Source: a bacterium
GTDB lineage: Bacteria > Patescibacteriota > Minisyncoccia > Phycocordibacterales > GCA-002787175
Length of the DNA stretch: 48,259 nucleotides
Direction: 5' to 3'
Assembly (NCBI GenBank): GCA_030699905.1
Contig: JAUYKQ010000002.1
Span: 1 to 48,259 of the forward strand
The position numbers were made by a program, and so were the translations under genes. Under the pieces are notes generated by a model. That model ran no database searches. It saw nothing but the letters and a program-made list of their open reading frames with translations, and was not told where the DNA came from. This document shows positions 37,547 through 47,619 of the stretch, piece after piece. How positions within the stretch are numbered: the first letter of the stretch is position 1; the number at the start of each line of letters is the position of its first letter.

Positions 37547-37615
37547 ATTATACTTATATTATCATAAATCTTACAGTTGCATTATGGGGAACTAACATTT
37601 TTAAGTAAAATGGCA

Positions 37616-37621
37616 TATAAT
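37616..37621 (+). promoter_or_regulatory. -10 of the tRNA-Arg/cca unit
   Basis: TATAAT lies 9 nt before the first base of tRNA-Arg. No strong -35 is seen. Confidence 0.55.
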
Positions 37622-37630
37622 TACCATGAT

Positions 37631-37703
37631 GCGCCCGTAGCTCAATGGATAGAGCACTTGGCTTCGGACCAAGGGGTTGTGGGTTCGAGTCCTGCCGGGC
37701 GCA
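37631..37703 (+). tRNA. tRNA-Arg (TCG), CCA not encoded
   Basis: Acceptor GCGCCCG/CGGGCGC, D arm GCTC/GAGC, anticodon stem CTTGG/CCAAG with loop CTTCGGA, T loop TTCGAGT. The 3' end is GCATAAA, so CCA is added afterwards. The CCA-adding enzyme gene starts 9 nt downstream. Confidence 0.96.
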
Positions 37704-37711
37704 TAAATTCA

Positions 37712-39220
37712 ATGGATAGGGAGACATTTAACATTCCAAAGGAGGTTGCAAACGTGGCAAAAACCCTTGAAAACAAGGGTTTTGAGGCGTATTTGATAGG
37801 TGGTTGCGTACGAGACACCCTTCTTGGGAAGAAGCCGAAGGACTGGGACATAACAACAAATGCCAAACCGGAAGAAATACAAAAGCTGTTTACAAACACT
37901 TTTTACGAAAATGAATACGGTACGGTGGGAATAGTGAACGAAAACGTTTCAGATGAAACATTAAAAGTCGTAGAGGCCACTCCATACAGAGAGGAAACAT
38001 CCTATTCGGATAATCGCAGGCCCGATTCGGTCAAGTTCAGCACAAAACTGGAGGACGATTTAAAACGACGGGACTTTACAATAAACGCCATAGCTTTGAA
38101 ATTGGAGACGACGGAAGGCAAGGACGGACAGGGAGAATATAAAGGACAGCTTGTTGACCTGTATAAAGGACAGCAAGATTTAAAAGACAGGGTCATACGA
38201 GCCGTAGGCAACGCAGACGAGCGTTTCAAAGAAGACGCCTTGCGAATGCTAAGGGCAGTACGTTTGGCGGCAGAACTTGGCTTTATTATTGAAGAAAATA
38301 CAGAAAAGGCCATTTTAGAAGACGGACACCTCCTCAAGAAAATATCAGCCGAGCGTATAAGAGACGAGTTTTCACGTGTAACAATGTCAGAAAGGCCGAT
38401 GGAGGGTATAAAATTGGCTCAAAAGTTGGGTCTTCTTAAGCATTTCCTTCCGGAACTTGAGGCGGGGGTTGGGATTGAACAGAATCAAGCGCACTCTTTT
38501 GATGTCTGGGAGCATATTTTGCGCACTGTTCAACACTCCGCAAAGAAGGGTTTTCCTTTAGAAGTACGGCTGGCAACACTATTTCATGACATAGCAAAGC
38601 CAAACACAAGGGTCTGGTCTAAAGAAAAAAAGGACTGGACATTTTATGGGCACGACGTAGTCGGTTCACGTGTAACCGAAAAAGCTCTGAAGCGACTGAA
38701 GTTTCCCGTGAAACTCATTGAAAAGGTGTCAAAATTAGTTAGATGGCATATGTTTTTCTCTGATACGGAAAAAATAACCTTATCTGCCGTTAGGCGACTT
38801 ATTTCAAAAGTTGGTACGGAAAACGTCTGGGACCTTATGGATGTGAGAACATGCGACCGCATAGGAACAGGAAGACCCAAAGAGAGCCCTTACCGCCTAC
38901 GCAAATACCATTCCATGATAGAGGAGGCCAGTCGCGACCCGGTGTCTGTTGGAATGTTGAAAATAAACGGGGGAAGGGTAATTGAGGTTACACATGAAAC
39001 ACCCGGGCCACGAATAGGGTACATACTCCACGCGCTATTGGAAGAAGTATTAGACGATCCCAAAAAGAACACTGTTCAATATATGGAAGAAAGAGCTTTA
39101 GAGTTGGCTAAACTTCCGGATAGTGAACTTACAACTTTAGGGGAGGCCGGGAAAAAGGTCAGAAAAGAAGAGGACTCTAAAAAAGTGGCTGAAATACGGA
39201 AAAAATACTGGGTGAAATAG
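37712..39220 (+). CDS. cca: CCA tRNA nucleotidyltransferase with HD domain
   Basis: It adds or repairs the 3' CCA of tRNAs, needed here by tRNA-Pro and tRNA-Arg. The class II nucleotidyltransferase site is GFEAYLIGGCVRDTLLGKKPKDWDITTNA near residue 20, followed by RRDFTINAIAL near 115 and DALRMLRAVRLAAELGF near 165. An HD domain (LATLFHDIAKPNTR near 275) suggests phosphatase or phosphodiesterase activity. 502 aa. ATG 37712 is chosen: the longer frame from 37577 translates tRNA-Arg and is an artefact. Confidence 0.95.
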   Translation: MDRETFNIPKEVANVAKTLENKGFEAYLIGGCVRDTLLGKKPKDWDITTNAKPEEIQKLFTNTFYENEYGTVGIVNENVSDETLKVVEATPYREETSYSDNRRPDSVKFSTKLEDDLKRRDFTINAIALKLETTEGKDGQGEYKGQLVDLYKGQQDLKDRVIRAVGNADERFKEDALRMLRAVRLAAELGFIIEENTEKAILEDGHLLKKISAERIRDEFSRVTMSERPMEGIKLAQKLGLLKHFLPELEAGVGIEQNQAHSFDVWEHILRTVQHSAKKGFPLEVRLATLFHDIAKPNTRVWSKEKKDWTFYGHDVVGSRVTEKALKRLKFPVKLIEKVSKLVRWHMFFSDTEKITLSAVRRLISKVGTENVWDLMDVRTCDRIGTGRPKESPYRLRKYHSMIEEASRDPVSVGMLKINGGRVIEVTHETPGPRIGYILHALLEEVLDDPKKNTVQYMEERALELAKLPDSELTTLGEAGKKVRKEEDSKKVAEIRKKYWVK

Positions 39221-39976
39221 TGGACGACTCAAGACCAAAGTCGGAAATCAAACGTTACACGTGTAACGTTTCAAATACCTGAAATTAAAAAGATAGGGAC
39301 GCGTATTACACAACAAAAAGCCGCTTGCGCACGAGTTTTTGAAAAAATGTGCCACCAAGCGGCTTGTAGGAGAGTTGAAAAGCTTCAGAGCTTTTGAGGA
39401 AATTATGCTCATGAAGGGAATTTTGGGAGCGCATTTCCGGCAAAATATTATAGAACTGGAGCTTTTCCACAAAGGAGAGAGTGCCTTTGTATGTTTAGAA
39501 TCAGCCACCAAGGCAAATTCTATTTGTTAAAAAGAACAATTTGGTTCCCAGAGGAGATTTTTGTCCACATAATGATAGATGTCTTTTATGAACAAAAATC
39601 TCCTCTGAAAATGTCTGATAAGATTTTACCAAGCATAAAGGACATCGTAAAGGACATAGGTGTGGATAACTGTTTATCAAATACGTTCCTGTGGGTTACA
39701 TTCTTGTGGTGGTTGTCGGACTTTTGCTTTCAGATTTCGCCACCCGGAGCACCACCCTCGTGACTTTTTGGCGAGATTTCTCTCCTCTTATCTTGGAGAA
39801 AGTCGGCTTCGGATGAACAGGGTAGCGCGCAGGGAAAGCTTTTGTAAGTAGATACGCTTACGAACAGCGCATGCGAATGGGGGACACCCTGCGCTTGCGC
39901 AGGGTAAGTTTGGGGCGACCCGCGGGGTTAACCCCCGCAGTGTCGCTCTTAACTTTGTAGTAAGGTTTAGAAAACT
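39221..39976. other. Gene-poor stretch with palindromes and a DnaA-box-like site
   Basis: A perfect 22-bp palindrome with core GTTACACGTGTAAC is at 39250-39271. A 15-bp inverted repeat AGAGGAGATTTTTGT/ACAAAAATCTCCTCT (39550-39564 and 39592-39606) surrounds a 27-bp loop. TGTGGATAA, a reverse DnaA-box match, is at 39661-39669. CCCTGCGC/GCGCAGGG hairpin is at about 39888-39908. A short frame at 39339-39530 (KSFRAFEEIMLMKGILGAHF) could be a gene remnant, but nothing is convincing. Confidence 0.4.
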
Positions 39977-40237
39977 ATGAAAAAAATTAACAAAAACTTG
40001 CCGAAAAACGAAGACGAAGAAAGAGAATTCTGGGCCGGTTTTGACTTAAGCGAAAATTTCAGTCCAAAAGATTTTAAAGATGTCTCATTTCCAAACCTAA
40101 AACCGACCACGCGCTCTATTTCTATCCGTGTTCCGGAATACCTACTTGCGAGAGTGAAAGAGCGCGCAAACAAACTCAATATTCCGTATCAGTCTCTCAT
40201 CAAAGAATATATCGCGGATGGGACTAAAAGGAGATAG
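39977..40237 (+). CDS. CopG/BrnA-like ribbon-helix-helix protein, probable solitary antitoxin
   Basis: The 86-aa protein has an acidic N-terminal half (KNEDEEREFWAGFDLSENFSPKDFKDVSFPNL) and a C-terminal RHH (TTRSISIRVPEYLLARVKERANKLNIPYQSLIKEYIADG). This layout matches BrnA/CopG-like antitoxins, in which the N-terminal part neutralises the toxin. No adjacent toxin gene is recognisable; upstream sequence is gene-poor. An AACCCCGTC/GACGAGGTT hairpin with a later T run (about 40246-40282) may terminate it. Confidence 0.75.
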   Translation: MKKINKNLPKNEDEEREFWAGFDLSENFSPKDFKDVSFPNLKPTTRSISIRVPEYLLARVKERANKLNIPYQSLIKEYIADGTKRR

Positions 40238-40316
40238 CTAAAGAAAACCCCGTCCGAAGACGAGGTTGTGCGAAGCTTTTTTAACCATGGGTAGCTTCAA
40301 ACCAAACCCGTGAGGT

Positions 40317-40398
40317 GATGCTCCGCTGAAGCATCGTCCGGTTTCGCGTAGAGGTAGCGGCGCGAGATTGGGTTTTGACGGTTGACCCGGGACCGAGT
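40317..40398 (-). repeat. Cassette 3' element, copy 1
   Basis: On the plus strand, a hairpin GATGCT-CCGCTGA-AGCATC (40317-40335) is followed by the conserved core, starting CGCGTAGAGGTAGCGGCGCG at 40345 and ending near GACCGAG at 40396. It lies immediately 3' of the minus-strand gene 40408-40902. Matching copies are at 41055-41142 and 41672-41760. Confidence 0.8.
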
Positions 40399-40407
40399 GC
40401 CCGAGGA

Positions 40408-40902
40408 CTACTTGCGACGCAGGAAAACCCAGCTCGGATTATCACGCCGCATTAGGTCAAGACGGGCACTGTAGCCGTCGAGAATCCGCTCGCCGTCATT
40501 GAGTCGCCCAACGTTGAAGACGCGGCTACCGTTGAATGAGTCGGTAATAGGTTCCATCGCAACGAGGAGCCATTCACCTTTCGGCTGGTCCTTATACTGC
40601 AAGCGTAGTTGCGGACCGACTTCGTTCGGGCAGAGCTCAAGTCCGAACTCCTTGGCGCGGGAGTAGGTCTCTTTGACAGTCGCACCGTTCTCGAAACCGA
40701 GTTCAGCATTAGAGACAATGACCAGATCCACTTCCGTTTTCTTATCAGCCACCTTAAAGGTAGGCTTACCGAGAATGTCGTAACCCCAGACGTTGATGTT
40801 GCATTTGAGGTTACAATCGGCTTTCATCAGGGCTTCGCAGAAGTCATCGGCGGTCTTGAGACCTGTGCCAAGCATAATCGTCAACAATTTCTCATAATTC
40901 AT
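40408..40902 (-). CDS. Cassette gene 1: Patescibacteria-type hypothetical protein
   Basis: The function is not recognised. ATG 40902 (MNYEKLLT...) follows a Shine-Dalgarno-like AGAGGAAA, giving 164 aa; a longer frame adds ten unlikely residues. LCPNEVGPQLRLQYKDQPKGEWLLVAMEPITDS is followed by repeating W/F-G-R/D-rich strands and ends WVFLRRK. From memory, this pattern (VGPQLRLQYxDQPxGEWLxIAMxPI...FVFxRRK) is shared by a large set of hypothetical proteins in Patescibacteria genomes; I could not check this. GC content is higher than the surrounding chromosome. It is the last of three same-strand genes, each with the same 3' element. Confidence 0.8.
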   Translation of the reverse strand: MNYEKLLTIMLGTGLKTADDFCEALMKADCNLKCNINVWGYDILGKPTFKVADKKTEVDLVIVSNAELGFENGATVKETYSRAKEFGLELCPNEVGPQLRLQYKDQPKGEWLLVAMEPITDSFNGSRVFNVGRLNDGERILDGYSARLDLMRRDNPSWVFLRRK

Positions 40903-41054
40903 AGCTTTTCCTCTTCTGGTGTTCGACGGCACATTTACCCGTTAACTTGCTCTTCCAAGAGCTAGTGATTTCGGGCCTACTTGAAGCCGTTTGGTTGTGA
41001 AAGAACTACTAACTCTATGGATTCACCAGCCCAAGCTGACGAATCCAATGAAGT

Positions 41055-41142
41055 GGGGAATATTCCGCTGAAATATTCCCCGAGTTTCGCGTAGAGGTAG
41101 CGGCGCGAGATTGGGTTTTGACGGTTGACCCGGAACCGAGTG
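41055..41142 (-). repeat. Cassette 3' element, copy 2
   Basis: Hairpin GGGGAATATT-CCGCTGA-AATATTCCCC (41055-41081) plus the conserved core (41088-41142), directly 3' of the gene 41152-41478. The loop is the same as in copies 1 and 3, but the stem sequence differs with full compensation. Confidence 0.85.
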
Positions 41143-41151
41143 GAGGGACCA

Positions 41152-41478
41152 CTAATCGTGTGACACGAATACTGCCACCTTGAGTTTGGCGTTTTTATGA
41201 CAAACCCCTTCAACCCATCCCGGATTAGATGCGGCGTGATGTGAACGCACCCCGAAAAATTCGAGGGAATCATCGCCAGGATCACATCCATTCGGAACCC
41301 AGTAGTCGCCGACGGGCAGCATACCTTCGGCGATAAGATTCTTAAGCTCTCTCCCGTCACCCCGATGCCAAACCAACATGTCAGAATGAAAGTTCCTATT
41401 CCTCAGTAATTCCAAAGCCTCGTAGTAGCTATGCTCACCGGGAAAAATATAGACTTCCGTTCGCTCGTTAGCATTCAT
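41152..41478 (-). CDS. Cassette gene 2: hypothetical protein
   Basis: The function is not recognised. ATG 41478 begins MNANERTEVYIFPGEHSYYE and gives 108 aa; a GAGG is 8 nt upstream. The sequence is rich in aromatic residues, glycine and histidine (WHRGDGRELKNLIAEGMLPVGDYWVPNGCDPG; FFGVRSHHAASNPGW), without a known motif. The start MNAN is shared with cassette gene 3, as is the whole 118-bp leader, so the leader plus first codons behave as one unit. GC-rich relative to the chromosome. It could be an enzyme or an antitoxin-like small protein; nothing in the sequence decides. Confidence 0.65.
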   Translation of the reverse strand: MNANERTEVYIFPGEHSYYEALELLRNRNFHSDMLVWHRGDGRELKNLIAEGMLPVGDYWVPNGCDPGDDSLEFFGVRSHHAASNPGWVEGVCHKNAKLKVAVFVSHD

Positions 41479-41501
41479 GTAATTATCCTCACGAAGGCGT
41501 T

Positions 41502-41619
41502 CTGTGTACCCCAAAACGGGACCTTATCAGCGCGCGTTCGTTGCGGGAATCGGGGAAGTGAATGAGGGCGACCGCCCCGGTTCCCGCAACGATTTTGCTA
41601 CCTGAATTTCAAAGAACTT
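41502..41619 (-). repeat. Cassette 5' leader repeat, copy 1 (118 bp)
   Basis: Identical over 118 bp to 42236-42353. On the minus strand it contains a 17-bp near-perfect stem, CGTTGCGGGAACCGGGG with CCCCGATTCCCGCAACG (one mismatch), around a 19-nt loop, and ends shortly before the Shine-Dalgarno of cassette gene 2. Confidence 0.9.
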
Positions 41620-41671
41620 TTCTGTTTCGCTCTTTTGAGCTCATCAGCTCCGACACACATCGGAGGACAGT

Positions 41672-41760
41672 GGGCAATGTTCCGCTGAAACATTGCCCGG
41701 ATATCGCGTTCAGGTAGCGGCGCGAGATTGGGTTTTGACGGTTGACCCGGAACCGAGGGG
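41672..41760 (-). repeat. Cassette 3' element, copy 3
   Basis: Hairpin GGGCAATGTT-CCGCTGA-AACATTGCCC (41672-41698) plus the conserved core (41705-41760), directly 3' of the gene 41769-42212. A separate CTCCGA/TCGGAG hairpin lies at about 41649-41666. Confidence 0.85.
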
Positions 41761-41768
41761 AGGGACCA

Positions 41769-42212
41769 CTACGTACCAATTACACTTGGAAGACCTCTCA
41801 ACTCCTCTTCCAGTGACGCCCGTTGTGCCTCAAGCTGACGAATACTTGAGTGAATCTCACAGCGCCTTTTCTCGTCACGCGCGGACTGCCGTGCATCTTT
41901 CGCAGCCCTCATCACCTCCTGTGGCACATCCTGATCCTGCGTTAAGACAAACTCCTTCCGTTTCACCGGAAAATATTTGTCTATATCGCACTCGTCAAGA
42001 TGGTTATGCCCGCCGGTTACCCAATGAATGGGCCGGCTCACCTCATTTGCCGCGGTTGCCAACGCAGGATACATTTCTTCCGAAATGCACGACCCGCACG
42101 GACATGCCGCACCACCGCGCGCCATGATGTAACCCTTACCTTCTGAGGTAGTCACCATAAAGATTCCATGGCCTTCACCGAGACAAATCACTTTGCAATT
42201 GTTCGCGTTCAT
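41769..42212 (-). CDS. Cassette gene 3: hypothetical protein with Cys cluster and C-terminal coiled coil
   Basis: The function is not recognised. ATG 42212 (MNANNCKVICLGEGHGIFMV) follows a strong GGAGGG Shine-Dalgarno, giving 147 aa. The motif CPCGSC near residue 40, plus HWVTGGHNHLDECD near 70, could bind a metal. The C-terminal 50 residues (SARDEKRRCEIHSSIRQLEA) predict a short coiled coil. It is preceded by the 118-bp leader repeat and followed by the 3' structured element. GC-rich. The opposite-strand frame at 41693-42127 is a shadow: it lacks a leader and crosses the repeats. Confidence 0.65.
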   Translation of the reverse strand: MNANNCKVICLGEGHGIFMVTTSEGKGYIMARGGAACPCGSCISEEMYPALATAANEVSRPIHWVTGGHNHLDECDIDKYFPVKRKEFVLTQDQDVPQEVMRAAKDARQSARDEKRRCEIHSSIRQLEAQRASLEEELRGLPSVIGT

Positions 42213-42235
42213 AGTAATTCCCTCCCGTTCGCTTG

Positions 42236-42353
42236 CTGTGTACCCCAAAACGGGACCTTATCAGCGCGCGTTCGTTGCGGGAATCGGGGAAGTGAATGAG
42301 GGCGACCGCCCCGGTTCCCGCAACGATTTTGCTACCTGAATTTCAAAGAACTT
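42236..42353 (-). repeat. Cassette 5' leader repeat, copy 2 (118 bp)
   Basis: Identical to 41502-41619; lies 5' of cassette gene 3. 100% identity over 118 bp between copies in non-coding DNA implies recent duplication or gene conversion. Confidence 0.9.
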
Positions 42354-42464
42354 ATCTTCTGGCATAATTATATCAAGCAACATTTGCGTAGTCATGTAAA
42401 GCGATTTAATGTCACGAAAATTGCCGATTTGTCGCTTAATAAAGCCACCGTACGCAATTCATAT

Positions 42465-42493
42465 TTGACTAATTTTTAGTCATTTGATAAGAT
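42465..42493 (+). promoter_or_regulatory. Leaderless promoter with operator palindrome
   Basis: TTGACT (42465-42470), a 17-bp spacer and TAAGAT (42488-42493) end 6 nt before ATG 42500. The perfect palindrome TGACTAATTTTTAGTCA (42466-42482) overlaps the -35 and spacer, a likely autoregulatory operator of the encoded HTH protein. Confidence 0.75.
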
Positions 42494-42499
42494 TTGCGT

Positions 42500-43357
42500 A
42501 TGAAATGGGACGATGAATCACTCGCCGTCTTCGGTTTGAACAAGACGGAAACGAAGATACTGGGGGTGTTGAAAACGGCCAAAAGCATCCAAGAAGTCGC
42601 CAAAGAGGCCCGTATATCAAGAACGGGCGTTGCGTATAGCCTTTCTCTCCTCACAGAGCGGGGTCTTGTGGAGCGCCATAAGCGGGGAAAGCGTCACGTG
42701 TATGTGGGTATAGGGATGTCGGGTCTGGCTCGCAAGCTTGAGCGGGTAAGCCAAGGGGTGCACATTGCGGAGGGAGGTGTGCGGGGAGCTCGTATCAGAA
42801 CGTCCAAGAAAAACGAATTCATTATTCATGTCGGCGCCAAAGAAATCATACCGGCGTATTCGCGTATCGCTTCCGTCAATAAGAATGAACGGGTGCGCGG
42901 GCTCCAACATCACCGCTCGTATAAAGAGATTGTAGAGAAGGCATCGTCAAAACTCTTGGCGGAGTTCAACGGGGCGATTATCAAGAACGACATCATTTTG
43001 GACGGTATTCTGAACGAAAGCGCCTACAAGGCCTATGCGGAGGAATTGAAAGCCGACCCGAAAAAATTCAAGAGCGCTGTGGAAAGTTTGGAAGGTAGAA
43101 TGGCCGATTACACTGTGTTCCCGGACAATTTTTTTGATTATGATGCCGAGATTTGGATATTCAAAACAACGACGCTCATCATCAACTGGCAAGAAGAGGT
43201 GGCGATTGAGATAACAAACACCAATATGACGGGCTTTCTGAAAGACATGTTTGAGTTCGTGAAGATGGGCGGGAGGAAGATTGACCACAATCAAATGATG
43301 CGCGAGGTACTTGCGGAAGTAGAGAAGGGCACTACGAGTGGTACAGATGGTGAATAG
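42500..43357 (+). CDS. Winged-helix transcriptional regulator, TrmB/ArsR-like
   Basis: Residues 8-75 form a winged helix (LNKTETKILGVLKTAKSIQEVAKEARISRTGVAYSLSLLTERGLVERHKRGKRHVY). The rest (residues 100-270) resembles the effector domain seen in TrmB-like regulators (EIIPAYSRI..., YTVFPDNFFDYDAEIWIFKTTTLIINWQEEVAIEITN). 285 aa. ATG 42500 is preferred over TTG 42494 because it follows the -10 by 6 nt. No sugar-transport gene is adjacent, so the effector is unknown. Its own palindromic operator suggests autoregulation. It ends just before an AbiEii toxin pseudogene in the same frame. Confidence 0.75.
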   Translation: MKWDDESLAVFGLNKTETKILGVLKTAKSIQEVAKEARISRTGVAYSLSLLTERGLVERHKRGKRHVYVGIGMSGLARKLERVSQGVHIAEGGVRGARIRTSKKNEFIIHVGAKEIIPAYSRIASVNKNERVRGLQHHRSYKEIVEKASSKLLAEFNGAIIKNDIILDGILNESAYKAYAEELKADPKKFKSAVESLEGRMADYTVFPDNFFDYDAEIWIFKTTTLIINWQEEVAIEITNTNMTGFLKDMFEFVKMGGRKIDHNQMMREVLAEVEKGTTSGTDGE

Positions 43358-43719
43358 GAAAGGAACATCCCGATATTTAACCTGTCTCAAAGCAAAGAGA
43401 CAATGTTCGCTCACAAACTATCTGCGTTGACCGACCGCTTCAAAAAACAGGGAAGATCGCAGGGCGCGATGTTTATGATATCCATCACTTTTTTATGAGC
43501 GGTTTTGAATATGACAAGGCGATTGTGGAAGAGCGCGCAGGAGTTCCTGTAAAGCAGTATCTTTTTGATACGGCTGATTTCATTGAAAAAAATGTTACGG
43601 AAAAAATCATAGACGAGGACTTAAACGCTCTTTTGTCGCCAGATAAATTTCAGCGATTGCGTAAAGTATTGAAAAGGGAGACGATTACTCTCTTAAATGA
43701 TGAAGCGGCGAGGAAATAG
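43358..43719 (+). pseudogene. AbiEii/AbiGii-type nucleotidyltransferase toxin, C-terminal remnant with frameshift
   Basis: The frame after the regulator stop continues as NIPIFNLSQSKETMFAHKLSALTDRFKKQG. It then shifts by one base near 43455 to IAGRDVYDIHHFFMSGFEYDKAIVEERAGVP, ending at EAARK. Together these match the C-terminal half of AbiEii toxins, which nucleotidylate tRNA in type IV toxin-antitoxin systems. The N-terminal nucleotidyltransferase motifs (GG...DLDF) are absent. It is therefore a decayed fragment without predicted activity. The antitoxin gene is also absent. Confidence 0.8.
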
Positions 43720-43855
43720 GACTTTGCCATATTCCAAGCAGATGCTATATTAAGAATAACAGATTATGCGACAGGCAATGAACATGACCAAAAAGACCAT
43801 TAAACAGCGCTCGCGTTGAGGGTTTCTTTTTGGCATTTTAACGAAGATATTAAAG

Positions 43856-43881
43856 AAAAGCCCTCAATGACGAGGGCTTTT
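43856..43881 (+). terminator. Intrinsic terminator
   Basis: AAAAGCCCTC pairs with GAGGGCTTTT around a 6-nt loop. Confidence 0.75.
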
Positions 43882-43936
43882 CGTTTGGCATAGCGCCGGA
43901 CAATGAAATAGATCTTTGCAAAACCATCTCCTAACC

Positions 43937-44182
43937 ATGACAACCCGCCTAATCGTTTTCCGCAGTCCCGGGTCCGACAAACTTTTCGCTCATATTACGA
44001 GAGGTGAGACCCCGGATATGAGTACGGCTCCGGTATGCGACGCGGTCGTTGTCTACGTGGCATTTGTTCCGACAGATGCGAGCGACGAAACTTCCGTCCG
44101 CCGTCTGGCCGAATCCGACCTCAAACGTCCCCATACTACAAGGATTGAGTGGTTTGAAAGCGGTGTGATTTGGAAGTTTTAA
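43937..44182 (+). CDS. Hypothetical protein, 81 aa
   Basis: The function is not recognised. ATG 43937 (MTTRLIVFRSPGSDKLFAHI) is preferred over the in-frame start at 43916. It reads as a small alpha-beta protein (VVVYVAFVP; RRLAESDLKRP; RIEWFESGVIWKF). It is isolated between two terminators (43856-43881 and 44212-44242), which supports it being a real independent gene. GC-rich relative to the chromosome. Confidence 0.5.
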   Translation: MTTRLIVFRSPGSDKLFAHITRGETPDMSTAPVCDAVVVYVAFVPTDASDETSVRRLAESDLKRPHTTRIEWFESGVIWKF

Positions 44183-44211
44183 AATTTCAGAAACTTGGTT
44201 TATGTAAATTA

Positions 44212-44242
44212 AAAACCGCCGAGATGTTTATCCGGCGGTTTT
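44212..44242 (+). terminator. Intrinsic terminator after the 81-aa gene
   Basis: AAAACCGCCG pairs with CGGCGGTTTT around an 11-nt loop. Confidence 0.8.
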
Positions 44243-44303
44243 ATGAATATTCGTAAATACCCAACCATAAACTCAAATTTAGCGGGAACACAGGGCTTCT
44301 TCA

Positions 44304-44358
44304 TTGACTTTTTAGGTGGTTTGTATATGATAATATAATATTAGAATATCATACAAAC
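44304..44358 (+). promoter_or_regulatory. Promoter/operator of the parD-relE-type pair
   Basis: TTGACT (44304-44309), a 16-bp spacer and TATGAT (44326-44331). An imperfect inverted repeat, TTGTATATGATA against TATCATACAA (about 44321-44358), covers the -10 and start site and is a likely antitoxin-binding operator. Confidence 0.65.
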
Positions 44359-44361
44359 ATT

Positions 44362-44571
44362 ATGACAACTTTATCTACTCCGGTTCCTTCCCATATGGAG
44401 GAATTTATAAAAAAGCAGATCAAGGAAGGGAAAGCGGCAAACAAGGCCGATGTTGTTAGGCGCGCTCTGAAAATGCTTGAGGAAGAGGAAGCGGTGCAAG
44501 CTATATTAAAAGCCCATAGAGAACCAACTCTTAGGGGCGATTTGCGTGATCTCTCCAAAAAAATAAAATGA
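44362..44571 (+). CDS. ParD-like antitoxin
   Basis: The 69-aa protein resembles ParD/CC2985 antitoxins: STPVPSHMEEFIKKQIKEGKAANKADVVRRALKMLEEEEA (RHH and dimerisation helices). A C-terminal tail (RGDLRDLSKKIK) would bind the toxin. The stop overlaps the toxin start by 4 bp (ATGA), giving translational coupling. It should repress its own promoter. Confidence 0.82.
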   Translation: MTTLSTPVPSHMEEFIKKQIKEGKAANKADVVRRALKMLEEEEAVQAILKAHREPTLRGDLRDLSKKIK

Positions 44572-44828
44572 TAAAAATCGGCTACAAACCGTCTTTTGTA
44601 AGACAGTTCAAACGGCTTGAATCAGACCTGCAGGAGGAGATTATAACAAAAATTGAATTGTTCAAAGATCGCGCCAACCATAAAATACTGAAGGTCCACA
44701 AATTAAAGGGCGCGCTCAAGGATTTCCACAGCTTTTCAGTAAACTATAAATTCAGAATCGTTTTTGAATTTGAAACAAAAAACGAGGCGGTTTTACTTTC
44801 TGTAGGGGATCACGATATTTACAAGTAG
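44568..44828 (+). CDS. RelE/ParE-superfamily toxin (YafQ-like)
   Basis: The 86-aa protein has the RelE fold order: YKPSFVRQFKRLESDLQEEIITKIELF, LKVHKLKGALKDFHSFSVNYKFRIVFEF and VLLSVGDHDIYK. The final GDHDIYK matches YafQ/RelE-type mRNA interferases, where a C-terminal H and Y are catalytic. It is cotranscribed with the ParD-like antitoxin; 16 bp after its stop lies a solo end of element D. Confidence 0.85.
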   Translation: MIKIGYKPSFVRQFKRLESDLQEEIITKIELFKDRANHKILKVHKLKGALKDFHSFSVNYKFRIVFEFETKNEAVLLSVGDHDIYK

Positions 44829-44843
44829 ATGAAAACAGGGTTT

Positions 44844-44862
44844 TAACCTATCTCCAATCTCA
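44844..44862. repeat. Solo terminus of element family D
   Basis: AACCTATCTCCAATCTCA matches the terminal repeat of the copies at 13663-13854 and 45755-45940; the remainder of the element is absent. Confidence 0.65.
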
Positions 44863-44894
44863 CTTCAGGCGGTTTTACCACTATACGCTTAACG

Positions 44895-45692
44895 CTACAC
44901 GCTAACCACTAACTCAACCGGACAATGGTCGGAGCCAAAAACTTCGGGAAGTATCTCGGCTTTTTTTACTTTAGATTTGAGAGTGGGGGAGATGAGAATG
45001 TAATCTATACGCCAGCCGACGTTTCGGGCGCGGGCGTTGGCAAAATGCGACCACCATGAATAGTGACCGGAACCTTTGTGAAATATCCGGAAAGTATCAA
45101 TAAATCCGGCGTCTATAAAGGACTGAAACCCTTCACGCTCTTCTTTCGTAAATCCCTTAAGTCCCTCATTGGCCTTTGGGCGAGCCAAGTCATCGGGAGT
45201 GTGGGCAACATTTAAGTCCCCGCAAAAGATCACGGGCTTCATCTTTTCAAGCTCTTTGCAATGCGCTAAAAAAGCCGGATCCCATTGTTTATGGCGAAGG
45301 GGAATGCGGGAAAGGTCGTCTTTGGCGTTCGGCGTATAAACAGTAACTACAAAAAACTTTTCATACTCGGCAGATATAACACGGCCTTCAGAAAGGGGGT
45401 TGCCATATTTATCCGCGCAAAGTCCGTATTTCTTCACAATATTTTCCGGCAGGCCGTTTATTACCGCCAAAGGTTTTGTTTTTGTAAAAATAGCCGTCCC
45501 CGAGTAGCCCTTTTTATCGGCCGAATTCCAGTATTCTTCGTATTGAGGCAAGTCAATCACCACTTGACCCTTTTCGGCTTTTGTCTCCTGAAGACAAAGA
45601 ATATCTGGGTCGTGTTTTTCAATAAACGGTAAAAAAAGGCCTTTTTTCATAACGGCCCGAATGCCATTTACGTTCCAAGAAATTATTCTCAT
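44895..45692 (-). CDS. xth: Exodeoxyribonuclease III / AP endonuclease
   Basis: It incises abasic sites in base-excision repair. The EEP nuclease motifs are complete: SWNVNGIRAV near residue 4, LCLQETKAE near 33, VVTVYTPNA near 115, FCGDLNVAHTPDDLARP near 155, WRIDYILIS near 230 and GSDHCPVEL at the end. At 265 aa it has normal length. TGtTAATAT ends 6 nt before ATG 45692, so the mRNA should be leaderless. It is convergent with the parD-relE-type pair. Confidence 0.96.
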   Translation of the reverse strand: MRIISWNVNGIRAVMKKGLFLPFIEKHDPDILCLQETKAEKGQVVIDLPQYEEYWNSADKKGYSGTAIFTKTKPLAVINGLPENIVKKYGLCADKYGNPLSEGRVISAEYEKFFVVTVYTPNAKDDLSRIPLRHKQWDPAFLAHCKELEKMKPVIFCGDLNVAHTPDDLARPKANEGLKGFTKEEREGFQSFIDAGFIDTFRIFHKGSGHYSWWSHFANARARNVGWRIDYILISPTLKSKVKKAEILPEVFGSDHCPVELVVSV

Positions 45693-45698
45693 AGGTAC

Positions 45699-45707
45699 AT
45701 ATTAACA
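45699..45707 (-). promoter_or_regulatory. Extended -10 of xth, leaderless spacing
   Basis: TGtTAATAT is followed by six bases and ATG 45692. Confidence 0.75.
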
Positions 45708-45754
45708 CAATTCGCTTCCCCGCAATTGACGTGGCAATGGACAAATTATGCCTA

Positions 45755-45940
45755 AGAGCATATCTCCAATCTCAACGCTAAAATAAGGATCAGATTAAAG
45801 CTCATCCGCTAAAATGCCAAAATTTCCGCCAAAAGCCGTCGCTTCACCCGAGCCATATCTTGATATGGCTCGGGCTCCAGCTATGCTTTTGCCTGGAAAT
45901 TATGCCATTTTATTCGGATGTGAGATTGGAGATATGCTCT
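45755..45940. repeat. MITE-like palindromic element family D, copy 2 (186 bp, inverted)
   Basis: Perfect 20-bp terminal repeats (AGAGCATATCTCCAATCTCA and its complement). The interior is homologous in reverse complement to 13663-13854 and has its own central palindrome CCGAGCCATATC/GATATGGCTCGG. Confidence 0.87.
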
Positions 45941-45977
45941 AAAATAGGCCGTTTTTAGAGAAAATCGGCCTAAAACA

Positions 45978-46007
45978 TTGACAAGTGGCAGTTGTCTGTG
46001 TTATACT
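45978..46007 (+). promoter_or_regulatory. Promoter of the pilin-like gene
   Basis: TTGACA (45978-45983), an 18-bp spacer and TATACT (46002-46007). A palindrome ATACTT/AAGTAT overlaps the start. The leader to ATG 46093 is about 80 nt. Confidence 0.65.
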
Positions 46008-46092
46008 TAAAGTATAAAGTTCGTTTTAAATACGGACAATAAACACGACATTTTGACTATAAAACGTTCAAAGTGCCGGTTAAAGTAAAAAC

Positions 46093-46413
46093 ATGACAAC
46101 ACAACTTCTTCAACTTATAATTTCTTCAATTATTGGAACGACTTTCATAGTAAACGGCGTGGTTTTGAAAACTGACGATATTTTGGCTGCCGCTACCGAA
46201 TCGGTAAACGGAGCAAACATTCATCAAATAGCCACAGTGCTTGAAATGTACTACATGGATAATGGCGAGTATCCGGCCGTTTCCGGCGGGGAAGAGCTTA
46301 TAGACCTTTTTGAAAAGGAGAGCCGAATAAGAAACAGGCCTCTTGACCCGAACGTTTTCTCTTATCACATAACAGAGAACGGACAAGATTACAAACTGGA
46401 AATCACAAAATAG
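46093..46413 (+). CDS. Pilin-like protein without a canonical prepilin site
   Basis: The 106-aa protein has a hydrophobic N-terminal segment (LLQLIISSIIGTTFIVNGVVL) but no G/F-x-x-x-E cleavage motif. The globular part, ANIHQIATVLEMYYMDNGEYPAVSGGEELIDLF and RNRPLDPNVFSYHITENGQDYKLEITK, matches the GspG/type IVa pilin signature (alpha1-C then DNGxYP and a proline-rich end). It may be an unprocessed or degenerate pseudopilin, or a secretion-associated relative. It is about 33 kb away from the pilus operon. Confidence 0.6.
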   Translation: MTTQLLQLIISSIIGTTFIVNGVVLKTDDILAAATESVNGANIHQIATVLEMYYMDNGEYPAVSGGEELIDLFEKESRIRNRPLDPNVFSYHITENGQDYKLEITK

Positions 46414-46491
46414 CCCCTCGAAACAAGCCCTGTGGTAAAAGCAGTGCTGTCGTCTGATACTTATAACCGACTTTTTACTGAATTTCAGTCC

Positions 46492-46520
46492 TTGCTTTTT
46501 TCATTGTTTCGTGCTACTCT
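46492..46520 (+). promoter_or_regulatory. rpsO promoter, leaderless spacing
   Basis: TTGCTT (46492-46497), a 17-bp spacer ending in TGc, and TACTCT (46515-46520), 6 nt before ATG 46527. Confidence 0.7.
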
Positions 46521-46526
46521 ACAAAA

Positions 46527-46793
46527 ATGTTAACCAAAATTAGGAAACAGCGAGTCATGAAGGAGACAGCCGTTCACGATAAAGATACGGGTTCTGCTGA
46601 CGTTCAGGTGGCCATTTTAACTAAAAGAATCACTGAATTGTCCCGTCATTTGAAGAAAAACCCGAAAGACAAGCACTCCAGAAGGGGACTTCTCGGTATG
46701 GTGGCCGACAGACAAGCTCATTTAAGATACCTTCAAAAGAAAAATCCGCGCAGATACGGTACACTGATTAAAAAGTTGGAATTAAAAAAGTGA
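46527..46793 (+). CDS. rpsO: 30S ribosomal protein S15
   Basis: S15 binds the 16S rRNA central domain and starts assembly of the platform. The family pattern is complete in 88 aa: HDKDTGSADVQVAILTKRITELSRHLKKNPKDKHSRRGLLGMVADRQAHLRYLQKKN. The pnp gene usually downstream is absent. An extended -10 6 nt before the ATG predicts a leaderless transcript, so the S15-binding autoregulatory leader known in other bacteria is absent. Confidence 0.97.
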   Translation: MLTKIRKQRVMKETAVHDKDTGSADVQVAILTKRITELSRHLKKNPKDKHSRRGLLGMVADRQAHLRYLQKKNPRRYGTLIKKLELKK

Positions 46794-46836
46794 ACAAAAT
46801 CGGAATTTCTTCTTTTCACCCGCTCTGTGTCGCCAA

Positions 46837-46866
46837 CAAAACCTCGCGTGCGAGGTTTTGTTTTTT
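46837..46866 (+). terminator. rpsO terminator
   Basis: CAAAACCTCGC pairs perfectly with GCGAGGTTTTG around a 2-nt loop, followed by TTTTTT. Confidence 0.9.
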
Positions 46867-46890
46867 CTGATAAAATTTAGTTAGATTACC

Positions 46891-47028
46891 TTGAATTACG
46901 AAATGGTGTTGAGGCGAGGTTTGAGAGGCGCCTTCGGAGGCGCGGCCGGCGCCGGAGAGAGAAGATTTTTAGTAAAAAATCTTCGTGGCGCAAAAAGACC
47001 TCGCCGAAAAAGACATTTCGTAATTCAC
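46891..47028. repeat. Palindromic element family B, copy 2 (inverted)
   Basis: Near-exact reverse complement of 26031-26165, with termini GAATTACGAAATG and CATTTCGTAATTC. Confidence 0.85.
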
Positions 47029-47070
47029 AGTAGATTAGCATTTTAAAAAATTATTTTTAATAAGGAACGT

Positions 47071-47619
47071 ATGCCAATAATAAAACACAAAGAACAGAGA
47101 GTTGGAATTTTTATAGACACGCAAAACATGTACCATAGCGCCAAAAACCTATACAGAGCGCACTTGAATTTTGGCCATGTGGTAAAAGACGCGCTTGCGG
47201 GTCGGGCCCTTATACGTGCCATTGCGTATGTCATAACCACGGAAGACGGGGCGGAAAGAGGGTTTTTTGACGCTTTAACAAAGGCCGGTATAGAAACAAA
47301 AACAAAAGACCTGCAAGTTTTCGCGGGAGGAGCCAAAAAGGCGGATTGGGACGTAGGGCTCGCGGTAGACGCCATTACAATGGCCCCCAAATTAGACACA
47401 GCCATAATAATATCAGGAGATGGCGATTTTGTTCCTCTTGTACAATATCTGCAAAAAACCGAAGGATGCCAAGTGGAAGTGGTGTCTTTTGGCAAATCCA
47501 CGTCAGCCAAATTAAGAGAAGAGGCGGATGATTTCTTTGATTTGGACAAAGCGTCAAGAAAATACCTCATGTCTTCATATTCGGGCGTCAGGAATAAACG
47601 AAACAACCCAAGCGAATAG
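47071..47619 (+). CDS. NYN-domain (LabA/DUF88) protein, putative RNase
   Basis: NYN proteins have a PIN-like RNase fold, with acidic residues coordinating metal. GIFIDTQNMYHSAKNLY near residue 12, KKADWDVGLAVDAITMAPKLDTAIIISGDGDFVPLVQYL near 90-128 and GCQVEVVSFGKSTSAKLREEADDFFDL near 132 carry the conserved aspartates. 182 aa. A possible Shine-Dalgarno (AAGGA) lies 4 nt before the ATG. A terminator-like hairpin overlaps the last codons. The substrate is unknown. Confidence 0.88.
   Translation: MPIIKHKEQRVGIFIDTQNMYHSAKNLYRAHLNFGHVVKDALAGRALIRAIAYVITTEDGAERGFFDALTKAGIETKTKDLQVFAGGAKKADWDVGLAVDAITMAPKLDTAIIISGDGDFVPLVQYLQKTEGCQVEVVSFGKSTSAKLREEADDFFDLDKASRKYLMSSYSGVRNKRNNPSE

Follow-up and report, generated by a model that had tools for sequence, protein, structure and literature searches.

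Hammerhead ribozyme motifs, structured 3' elements and boxA-like sites between small genes beside a TrmB-family regulator gene in Patescibacteria

Introduction

Clusters of several hammerhead ribozymes (HHRs) have been described in prophages, where they flank single genes or short blocks of genes whose identities are not constant, and where processing of long transcripts into gene-length mRNAs has been proposed (Perreault et al. 2011, PMC3088659). Tandem prophage HHRs cleave in vitro, and one set also cleaves in E. coli (PMC3088659). The job of prokaryotic HHRs is a recognised open question (review, PMC6155905).

The locus described here lies in a 48,259-nucleotide stretch of a Patescibacteria genome (contig JAUYKQ010000002.1 of assembly GCA_030699905.1), referred to as the window. 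An initial annotation had described an array of three genes in it as cassette-like and had suggested a capture/expression system. We assign a probability of roughly 0.7 to the reading of the region as a short operon, punctuated at the RNA level, that adjoins a divergently oriented TrmB-family regulator gene. The HHR, the divergent TrmB gene and the replacement of a block relative to a congener, all reported below, were not part of the initial annotation.

Array layout and repeated elements

The direct repeat family D1 has three copies in the window, all on the minus strand and each about 100 bp long (40309-40411, 41052-41154 and 41669-41771), the conserved part being 90-91% identical (E 3e-35 and 3e-25). 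Every copy starts where a minus-strand ORF has its stop codon (40408-40902, 41152-41478 and 41769-42212; genes 1, 2 and 3, respectively), which upholds the original description of three same-strand genes each followed by the same element. With genes and elements all on the minus strand, each element is 3' to its gene and each 118-bp block is a 5' leader; the identical leader reported for two genes was recovered as an exact run common to both (41502-41619 and 42236-42353). Unit spacing is 743 and 617 bp, within the reported period of 0.6-0.75 kb, and the reported GC richness was also borne out, the GC fraction being 0.523 in the array against 0.442 in the rest of the window outside the surrounding island (0.498 for the whole island). 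In the direction of the minus strand, the features of the array are:

42367-42395, minus strand: candidate array promoter ATGACT-17-TATAAT with extended -10, just upstream of the shared leader
42236-42353, minus strand: gene 3 leader, 118 bp, with boxA-like GTTCTTTGA at 42343-42351
41769-42212, minus strand: gene 3, 147 aa, no relatives found
41672-41771, minus strand: gene 3 3' element, with terminal hairpin at 41672-41698, 1 nt before HHR stem III
41622-41670, minus strand: type III HHR, predicted cleavage between 41666 and 41665
41609-41617, minus strand: boxA-like GTTCTTTGA, 4 nt past the HHR
41502-41619, minus strand: gene 2 leader, 118 bp, starting at the HHR end
41152-41478, minus strand: gene 2, 108 aa, one detected relative (in genome G099)
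41055-41154, minus strand: gene 2 3' element, D1 repeat
41017-41049, minus strand: HHR slot between genes 2 and 1, occupied by a plain hairpin GGATTC..GAATCC
40999-41007, minus strand: boxA-like AGTTCTTTC, after the slot hairpin
40408-40902, minus strand: gene 1, 164 aa, of a diversity-generating retroelement (DGR) variable protein family
40317-40410, minus strand: gene 1 3' element of the last unit, D1 repeat
40246-40267, minus strand: intrinsic terminator-like hairpin in the sequence at the array end

Each 3' element carries a terminal hairpin whose loop is constant and whose stem differs in each copy with full compensation (GATGC/GCATC, GGGAATAT/ATATTCCC and GGCAATGT/ACATTGCC). A further complementarity with a loop, CCGCU/AGCGG, is conserved in 3/3 copies and, being invariant, is only suggestive. 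The candidate array promoter has 10/12 consensus matches and is weak by itself, promoter-like matches in the region being no more frequent than in shuffles.

Two other ideas on the repeats were dropped. Pairing between leader and 3' element within a unit was suggested by a 10-nt complement in the gene 3 unit (shuffle fraction 0.008) and was abandoned because 34 other units stood at chance (6.38 vs 6.24). As a rule, modules within an array are not copies of each other either: flank identity within arrays is about that between arrays, a few pairs excepted, so that the near-identical modules of the window are a local feature.

A hammerhead ribozyme at the gene 3/gene 2 boundary

A type III HHR lies between the gene 3 element and the gene 2 leader (cmscan, RF00008, 41619-41673, 33.5 bits, E 9e-5). 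It was missed by a scan at the Rfam gathering threshold (33.5 vs 48.5 bits), which is a curator's cut-off and not a structural feature; that score was exceeded in 4 of the 61 genomes with RF00008 matches, and most relatives of the window HHR fall below it. A strict structural scan, whose false rate was 1 match per 1.93 Mb of shuffled window sequence, returned the HHR at 41622-41670 as its sole match in the window. Read on the minus strand from the gene 3 element into the gene 2 leader, the sequence is ...GGGCAATGTTTCAGCGGAACATTGCCC-A-CTGTC^CTCCGATGTGTGTCGGAGCTGATGAGCTCAAAAGAGCGAAACAG-AAAA-GTTCTTTGA. The core is complete, with CTGATGA, GAAA and TC present together with three helices (core tested as C3 U4 G5 A6 N7 G8 A9, G12 A13 A14, the A15.1-U16.1 pair, and U16 H17), and stems I, II and III are all present in the minimum free energy fold of the 172-nt context. 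As in RF00008, the core is CUGAUGA..GAAA..NUH, stems I and II are closed by loops and stem III is open; the HHRs reported here differ from that family in a short stem III (3 bp in the window), a 4-bp stem II with an AAAA-type loop, a near-constant UGUGU-type stem I loop and scores mostly below the gathering score.

At the gene 2/gene 1 boundary, the strict scan found no hammerhead core (41017-41049), and the 3' hairpin and boxA-like site are present. The window array holds one HHR, at one of its two internal boundaries, rather than several in a row. Since the shared leader starts at the HHR end in one unit and, in the gene 3 unit, roughly where transcription from a promoter-like site would begin, the ribozyme stands in the promoter's place.

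Recurrence of the ribozyme in arrays of small genes

Of 397 genomes of the order, 61 gave RF00008 matches; of 14 controls, none did. The strict scan yielded 111 distinct HHRs in 71 loci, against the 1 match that shuffled window sequence gave in 1.93 Mb. In several genomes, 2-6 HHRs follow one another on the same strand, mostly at intervals of 0.3-1.7 kb that hold small ORFs, the median distance being 60 nt from stop codon to HHR and 55 nt from HHR to start codon. Seventy-two HHRs share one 49-nt layout and can be aligned gap-free, and several compensated pair types occur at nearly all helix positions (at position 8/21, for example, CG 14, GC 26, AT 27 and TA 2). Because these HHRs were gathered with a structural filter that demanded minimum helix lengths, the percentage of paired positions is partly given by construction and is no evidence; the diversity of pair types is.

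In a pattern scan of GTDB genomes, the motif turned up most often in Patescibacteria records, including Paceibacterota, Nomura-, Kaiser-, Taylor- and Saccharibacteria and others, and HHR arrays with abutting hairpins exist in genomes of the wider phylum. Two congeners that were examined had no HHR match and no relative of the window TrmB. Outside the order, five closely similar HHRs (CCCTCAACA..CGACGAAAGGG) occur on three contigs of one genome (L357 on contig C32 of G568, L358 and L359), with no TrmB gene near them.

Ribozymes spaced in this way could also serve to make circular RNAs of the retrozyme or viroid kind, the arrays then being DNA copies of RNA replicons. A unit between two HHRs would give an RNA of 0.4-1 kb with a 5'-OH and a 2',3'-cyclic phosphate, a substrate for RtcB-type ligation, and the units contain an ORF. 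Yet RtcB is absent from the window's genome and from 58 of 60 genomes of the order, the window's genome has no reverse transcriptase, array genes differ between units, and a promoter-like site, not an HHR, opens the first unit of the window, all of which makes this origin highly improbable.

A composite boundary module

In 90 of the 111 distinct HHRs, stem III is preceded at a distance of 0-2 nt by a hairpin with 5 bp or more. In 36 of these 90, the hairpin loop pairs with the 5' flank through 4 or more Watson-Crick pairs as an H-type pseudoknot; shuffling predicts 10.3 such cases, and the share at control hairpins is 8%. The pseudoknots that abut HHRs often have an A-rich last loop and end next to the cleavage site. 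Downstream, GTTCTTT occurs within 30 nt of the HHR in 40/111 cases, in the next 30 nt in 5/110 and in the following 30 nt in none; we take this motif to resemble the boxA antitermination signal. The usual order at a boundary is a hairpin, often pseudoknotted, an abutting HHR and, often, a boxA-like site. The 3' element of the window is larger than the simple H-type pseudoknots of other loci and differs from them in fold and sequence.

The exact sequence of the 3' element is confined to this genome. None of 148 genomes of the order gave a convincing match (a single 23-nt match in G129, E 0.006, was near chance), and no exact 29-mer was present in about 85,000 GTDB genomes and no 23-mer in IMG/VR. 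With the element absent from these, the cassette proposal would fail for the sequence, since it had been framed such that an element found in no other genome would speak against it; it survives for the architecture, which recurs in many genomes with different genes. The capture/expression system is supported in its expression part, as a cassette-like array in which recurring RNA modules bracket each of several unrelated small ORFs, on an island absent from a congener; the capture part, in an integron-like form, is not supported.

The same evidence bears on any DNA-level cassette system, integron-like or other, in which the 3' element would be a recombination site for gene capture. Such a system would accommodate units made of an unrelated ORF and a constant 3' site, diverse stems under a constant loop, and an island missing from a congener. 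Against it, the attC core GTTRRRY/RYYYAAC is absent from all copies on both strands, as had been stated from the outset; the exact element occurs in no other genome; no recombinase and no integrase candidate is found among the island's predicted ORFs; and the recurring part reads as a ribozyme that has compensated helices and is transcribed in the direction of the genes. We consider gene capture at the element very unlikely. Judged by its sequence, the part that recurs between genomes is a self-cleaving-type ribozyme with a flanking hairpin or pseudoknot, a signal predicted to act on RNA.

The divergent TrmB-family regulator gene

Two features lie on the 5' side of the array:

42466-42482, no strand assigned: palindrome TGACTAATTTTTAGTCA, overlapping the -35 of the trmB promoter-like site
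42494-43357, plus strand: TrmB-family winged-helix regulator gene, divergent from the array (PF01978, E 2.8e-6)

The window trmB is the genome's sole TrmB match (PF01978, 27.5 bits vs cut-off 25.6), and its start lies about 280 bp away from gene 3, on the array's 5' side and inside the 3.5-kb limit applied below. The position of the palindrome makes it a candidate operator. Known TrmB proteins control sugar uptake genes. The window protein shares with known members of the family the PF01978 winged helix, a length of about 285 aa and divergence from its putative target genes; it differs in that its neighbours are small orphan genes separated by ribozymes.

All 15 multi-HHR arrays whose 5' flank was long enough, and 20 of 42 single HHRs, have a TrmB gene no more than 3.5 kb away on their 5' side. 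At loci with 3.5 kb on both sides, it is found 5' in 28/48 and 3' in 1/48; the TrmB HMM was trained on loci of the same set, and both Pfam and the 3'-side control agree with it. TrmB density near HHRs is 0.111/kb within 2 kb, against about 0.005-0.02/kb at 4-10 kb and about 0.003/kb genome-wide, and a TrmB neighbour was seen in 0 of 92 viral HHR loci. Outside the order, TrmB accompanies HHR arrays in 1 of 10 genomes of the wider phylum, with further single cases in Saccharibacteria (L104 and L120), so that the link is weak there and is mainly a feature of the window's order.

TrmB clusters without HHRs (G008 and G010) were set aside as a different arrangement. These gene islands (L334-L337 in G008, L338-L340 in G010) contain many TrmB genes and no hammerheads, and in G008 every TrmB gene adjoins a gene for an exported, binding-protein-like product of about 370 aa.

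Genes of the arrays

Gene 3 has no relatives in 397 genomes of the order, and neither gene 2 nor gene 3 belongs to a family above cut-off in Pfam, NCBIfam, PADLOC or PHROGs. The one relative of gene 2 (G099, L356:1501-1845; E 7.5e-4, 30% identity over 54 aa) is followed 3' by a pseudoknot-capable hairpin, a CTGTA-type HHR, GATCTTTGA and then a receiver-like gene. This HHR array is of another family, and because G099 was not among the HHR matches listed, it constitutes an independent test of the idea.

Most of the 122 array proteins lack any family. Those that recur include receiver domains, Csx3 ring-nuclease-like proteins (PF09620, PADLOC Csx3) and, weakly, STIV B116-like proteins, and the ring-nuclease-like members hint at cyclic-nucleotide signalling. 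Ring-nuclease-like array genes are found at L307:9517-9876, L266:3449-3754 and L313 (Csx3) and at L293:5623-5967 and L333 (STIV B116-like). Families are shared between arrays in varying combinations (C0 with C16 in G016, C16 with C15 in G335, C15 with C6 in G065); G016 and G335 have three families in common in one array and differ in its middle unit.

Gene 1 had been said to fit a protein pattern of many Patescibacteria, and its family indeed occurs in 52 of 297 genomes of the order. Its whole length can be aligned with DGR targets of the order; the nearest described system is that of the DGR variable proteins of Patescibacteria (Roux et al. 2021, PMC8144416). Among its relatives, mismatches between variable and template repeats fall at adenines at 108 of 113 positions in six loci, and reverse transcriptase genes adjoin the relatives in both loci checked. 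The AF2 model of gene 1 (pLDDT 94) best matches C-type lectin domains, weakly (E 0.05), and a search against PDB sequences gave no match. The DGR target protein family of the order is represented at L036-L055, where the two target genes of L036 appear to share one template repeat, and the gene 1-type target domain also occurs within ORFs of 610-660 aa (for example in L014, L018 and L021).

This kinship raises the reading of the array as an orphaned DGR module, with the 3' element a relic following the variable region and genes 2 and 3 other DGR relics. Unlike described DGR systems (PMC8144416), the window's genome has neither a reverse transcriptase nor a template repeat, and gene 1 is single-copy; genes 2 and 3 fall outside the gene 1 family, the element follows all three genes, and relatives that bear a DGR lack a strict HHR. 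The one relative inside an HHR array (G296, L270) is, like the window, without DGR repeats. The reading is disfavoured, and we hold the chance that it is right to be remote.

The island and its flanks

The array is part of an island that is absent from the congener G078 (locus L348):

39845-43375, no strand assigned: island with CopG antitoxin gene, array and trmB (blastn/tblastn against L348)

At this site, G078 reads cca, ATPase, AbiEi, AbiEii, xth, and the island's counterpart there comprises the inner part of the ATPase gene, AbiEi and the greater part of AbiEii. In the window, remnants of the ends of the ATPase gene, intact in G078, are found at 39580-39671 and 39700-39844, and the last third of AbiEii, also intact in G078, remains at 43376-43770; flank identity to L348 is 90-94% at 43376-43770 and 43776-44220. 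By these alignments, the AbiE system is replaced by the island in the window, and since AbiEii is truncated there, the window state is probably derived. Most simply, the block of CopG gene, array and trmB would have arrived as a unit.

The CopG-type antitoxin gene (39977-40237) has no adjacent toxin gene, and a RelE/HigB-like toxin gene (44568-44828) lies outside the island. Within 37577-47619, the array is flanked by cca on one side and by xth/rpsO/NYN on the other. In other genomes, TrmB genes or HHR arrays occur near the same housekeeping genes (L271, L338, L343, L260 and L262), so the site may be an integration hot spot.

These flanks bear on whether the array is the decaying remnant of a prophage HHR cluster. 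Clusters flanking single genes are known from prophages (PMC3088659) and HHRs occur on many IMG/VR contigs, but the window flanks are housekeeping genes (cca, xth, rpsO, NYN) and not phage genes, few of the 122 array proteins match PHROG, no structural phage family is among the 25 listed, and TrmB accompanies none of the 92 viral HHR loci. A prophage remnant is therefore improbable.

Discussion

In the preferred reading, an RNA-punctuated operon beside trmB, transcription would begin near 42360 and yield a single RNA that covers genes 3, 2 and 1 up to a terminator near 40246, with each gene bringing its own leader, boxA-like site and structured 3' element. The HHR at the gene 3/gene 2 boundary would cut this RNA a few nucleotides past the 3' hairpin, so that the gene 3 mRNA would end close to the hairpin with a 2',3'-cyclic phosphate and the RNA downstream would carry the folded ribozyme and boxA at its 5' end; between genes 2 and 1, the ribozyme would be missing or decayed. 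TrmB would control a transcript that ribozymes cut into small mRNAs, with the 3' elements acting as end protection. The array would be one case of a pattern widespread in Patescibacteria, a TrmB regulator followed by small ORFs separated by hairpin-HHR-boxA modules, with the small, often orphan array genes turning over as units. It is conceivable, at somewhat under even odds, that these loci form a general Patescibacteria platform, in which a TrmB-type regulator is joined to tandem expression cassettes that have a 3' hairpin or pseudoknot and ribozyme and boxA separators, and swappable small genes are made as individual mRNAs from one regulated promoter. If true, genomes with few regulators could exchange rapidly changing genes and still express each one individually.

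A recurrent non-phage setting with a fixed anatomy of regulator, 3' hairpin or pseudoknot, ribozyme and boxA makes an HHR role testable: cleavage sites in the TrmB-linked arrays are predicted to the nucleotide, and the ribozymes are tied to a regulator and an orphan gene pool. The arrays also offer a way into the accessory biology of ultra-small bacteria, in which regulators and uncharacterised genes are little understood. In the literature searched, no paper joined HHRs with Patescibacteria, and HHR and TrmB were found together only in a general review.

Compared with integron gene cassettes, the arrays are alike in having promoterless small ORFs in a row, a structured 3' site for each and high turnover, and they differ in that there is no attC core and no integrase among the island ORFs, 5' leaders are shared too and the signals would act on RNA. 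With the prophage HHR clusters (PMC3088659), they share clustered HHRs flanking variable genes and the same proposed role. They differ from these in being chromosomal, in Patescibacteria, among housekeeping genes and 3' of a TrmB-family regulator gene, and in that the boundary is a composite hairpin/pseudoknot-HHR-boxA module. By the literature searched, the chromosomal TrmB-linked HHR arrays, their composite boundary module and their gene pool appear to be new.
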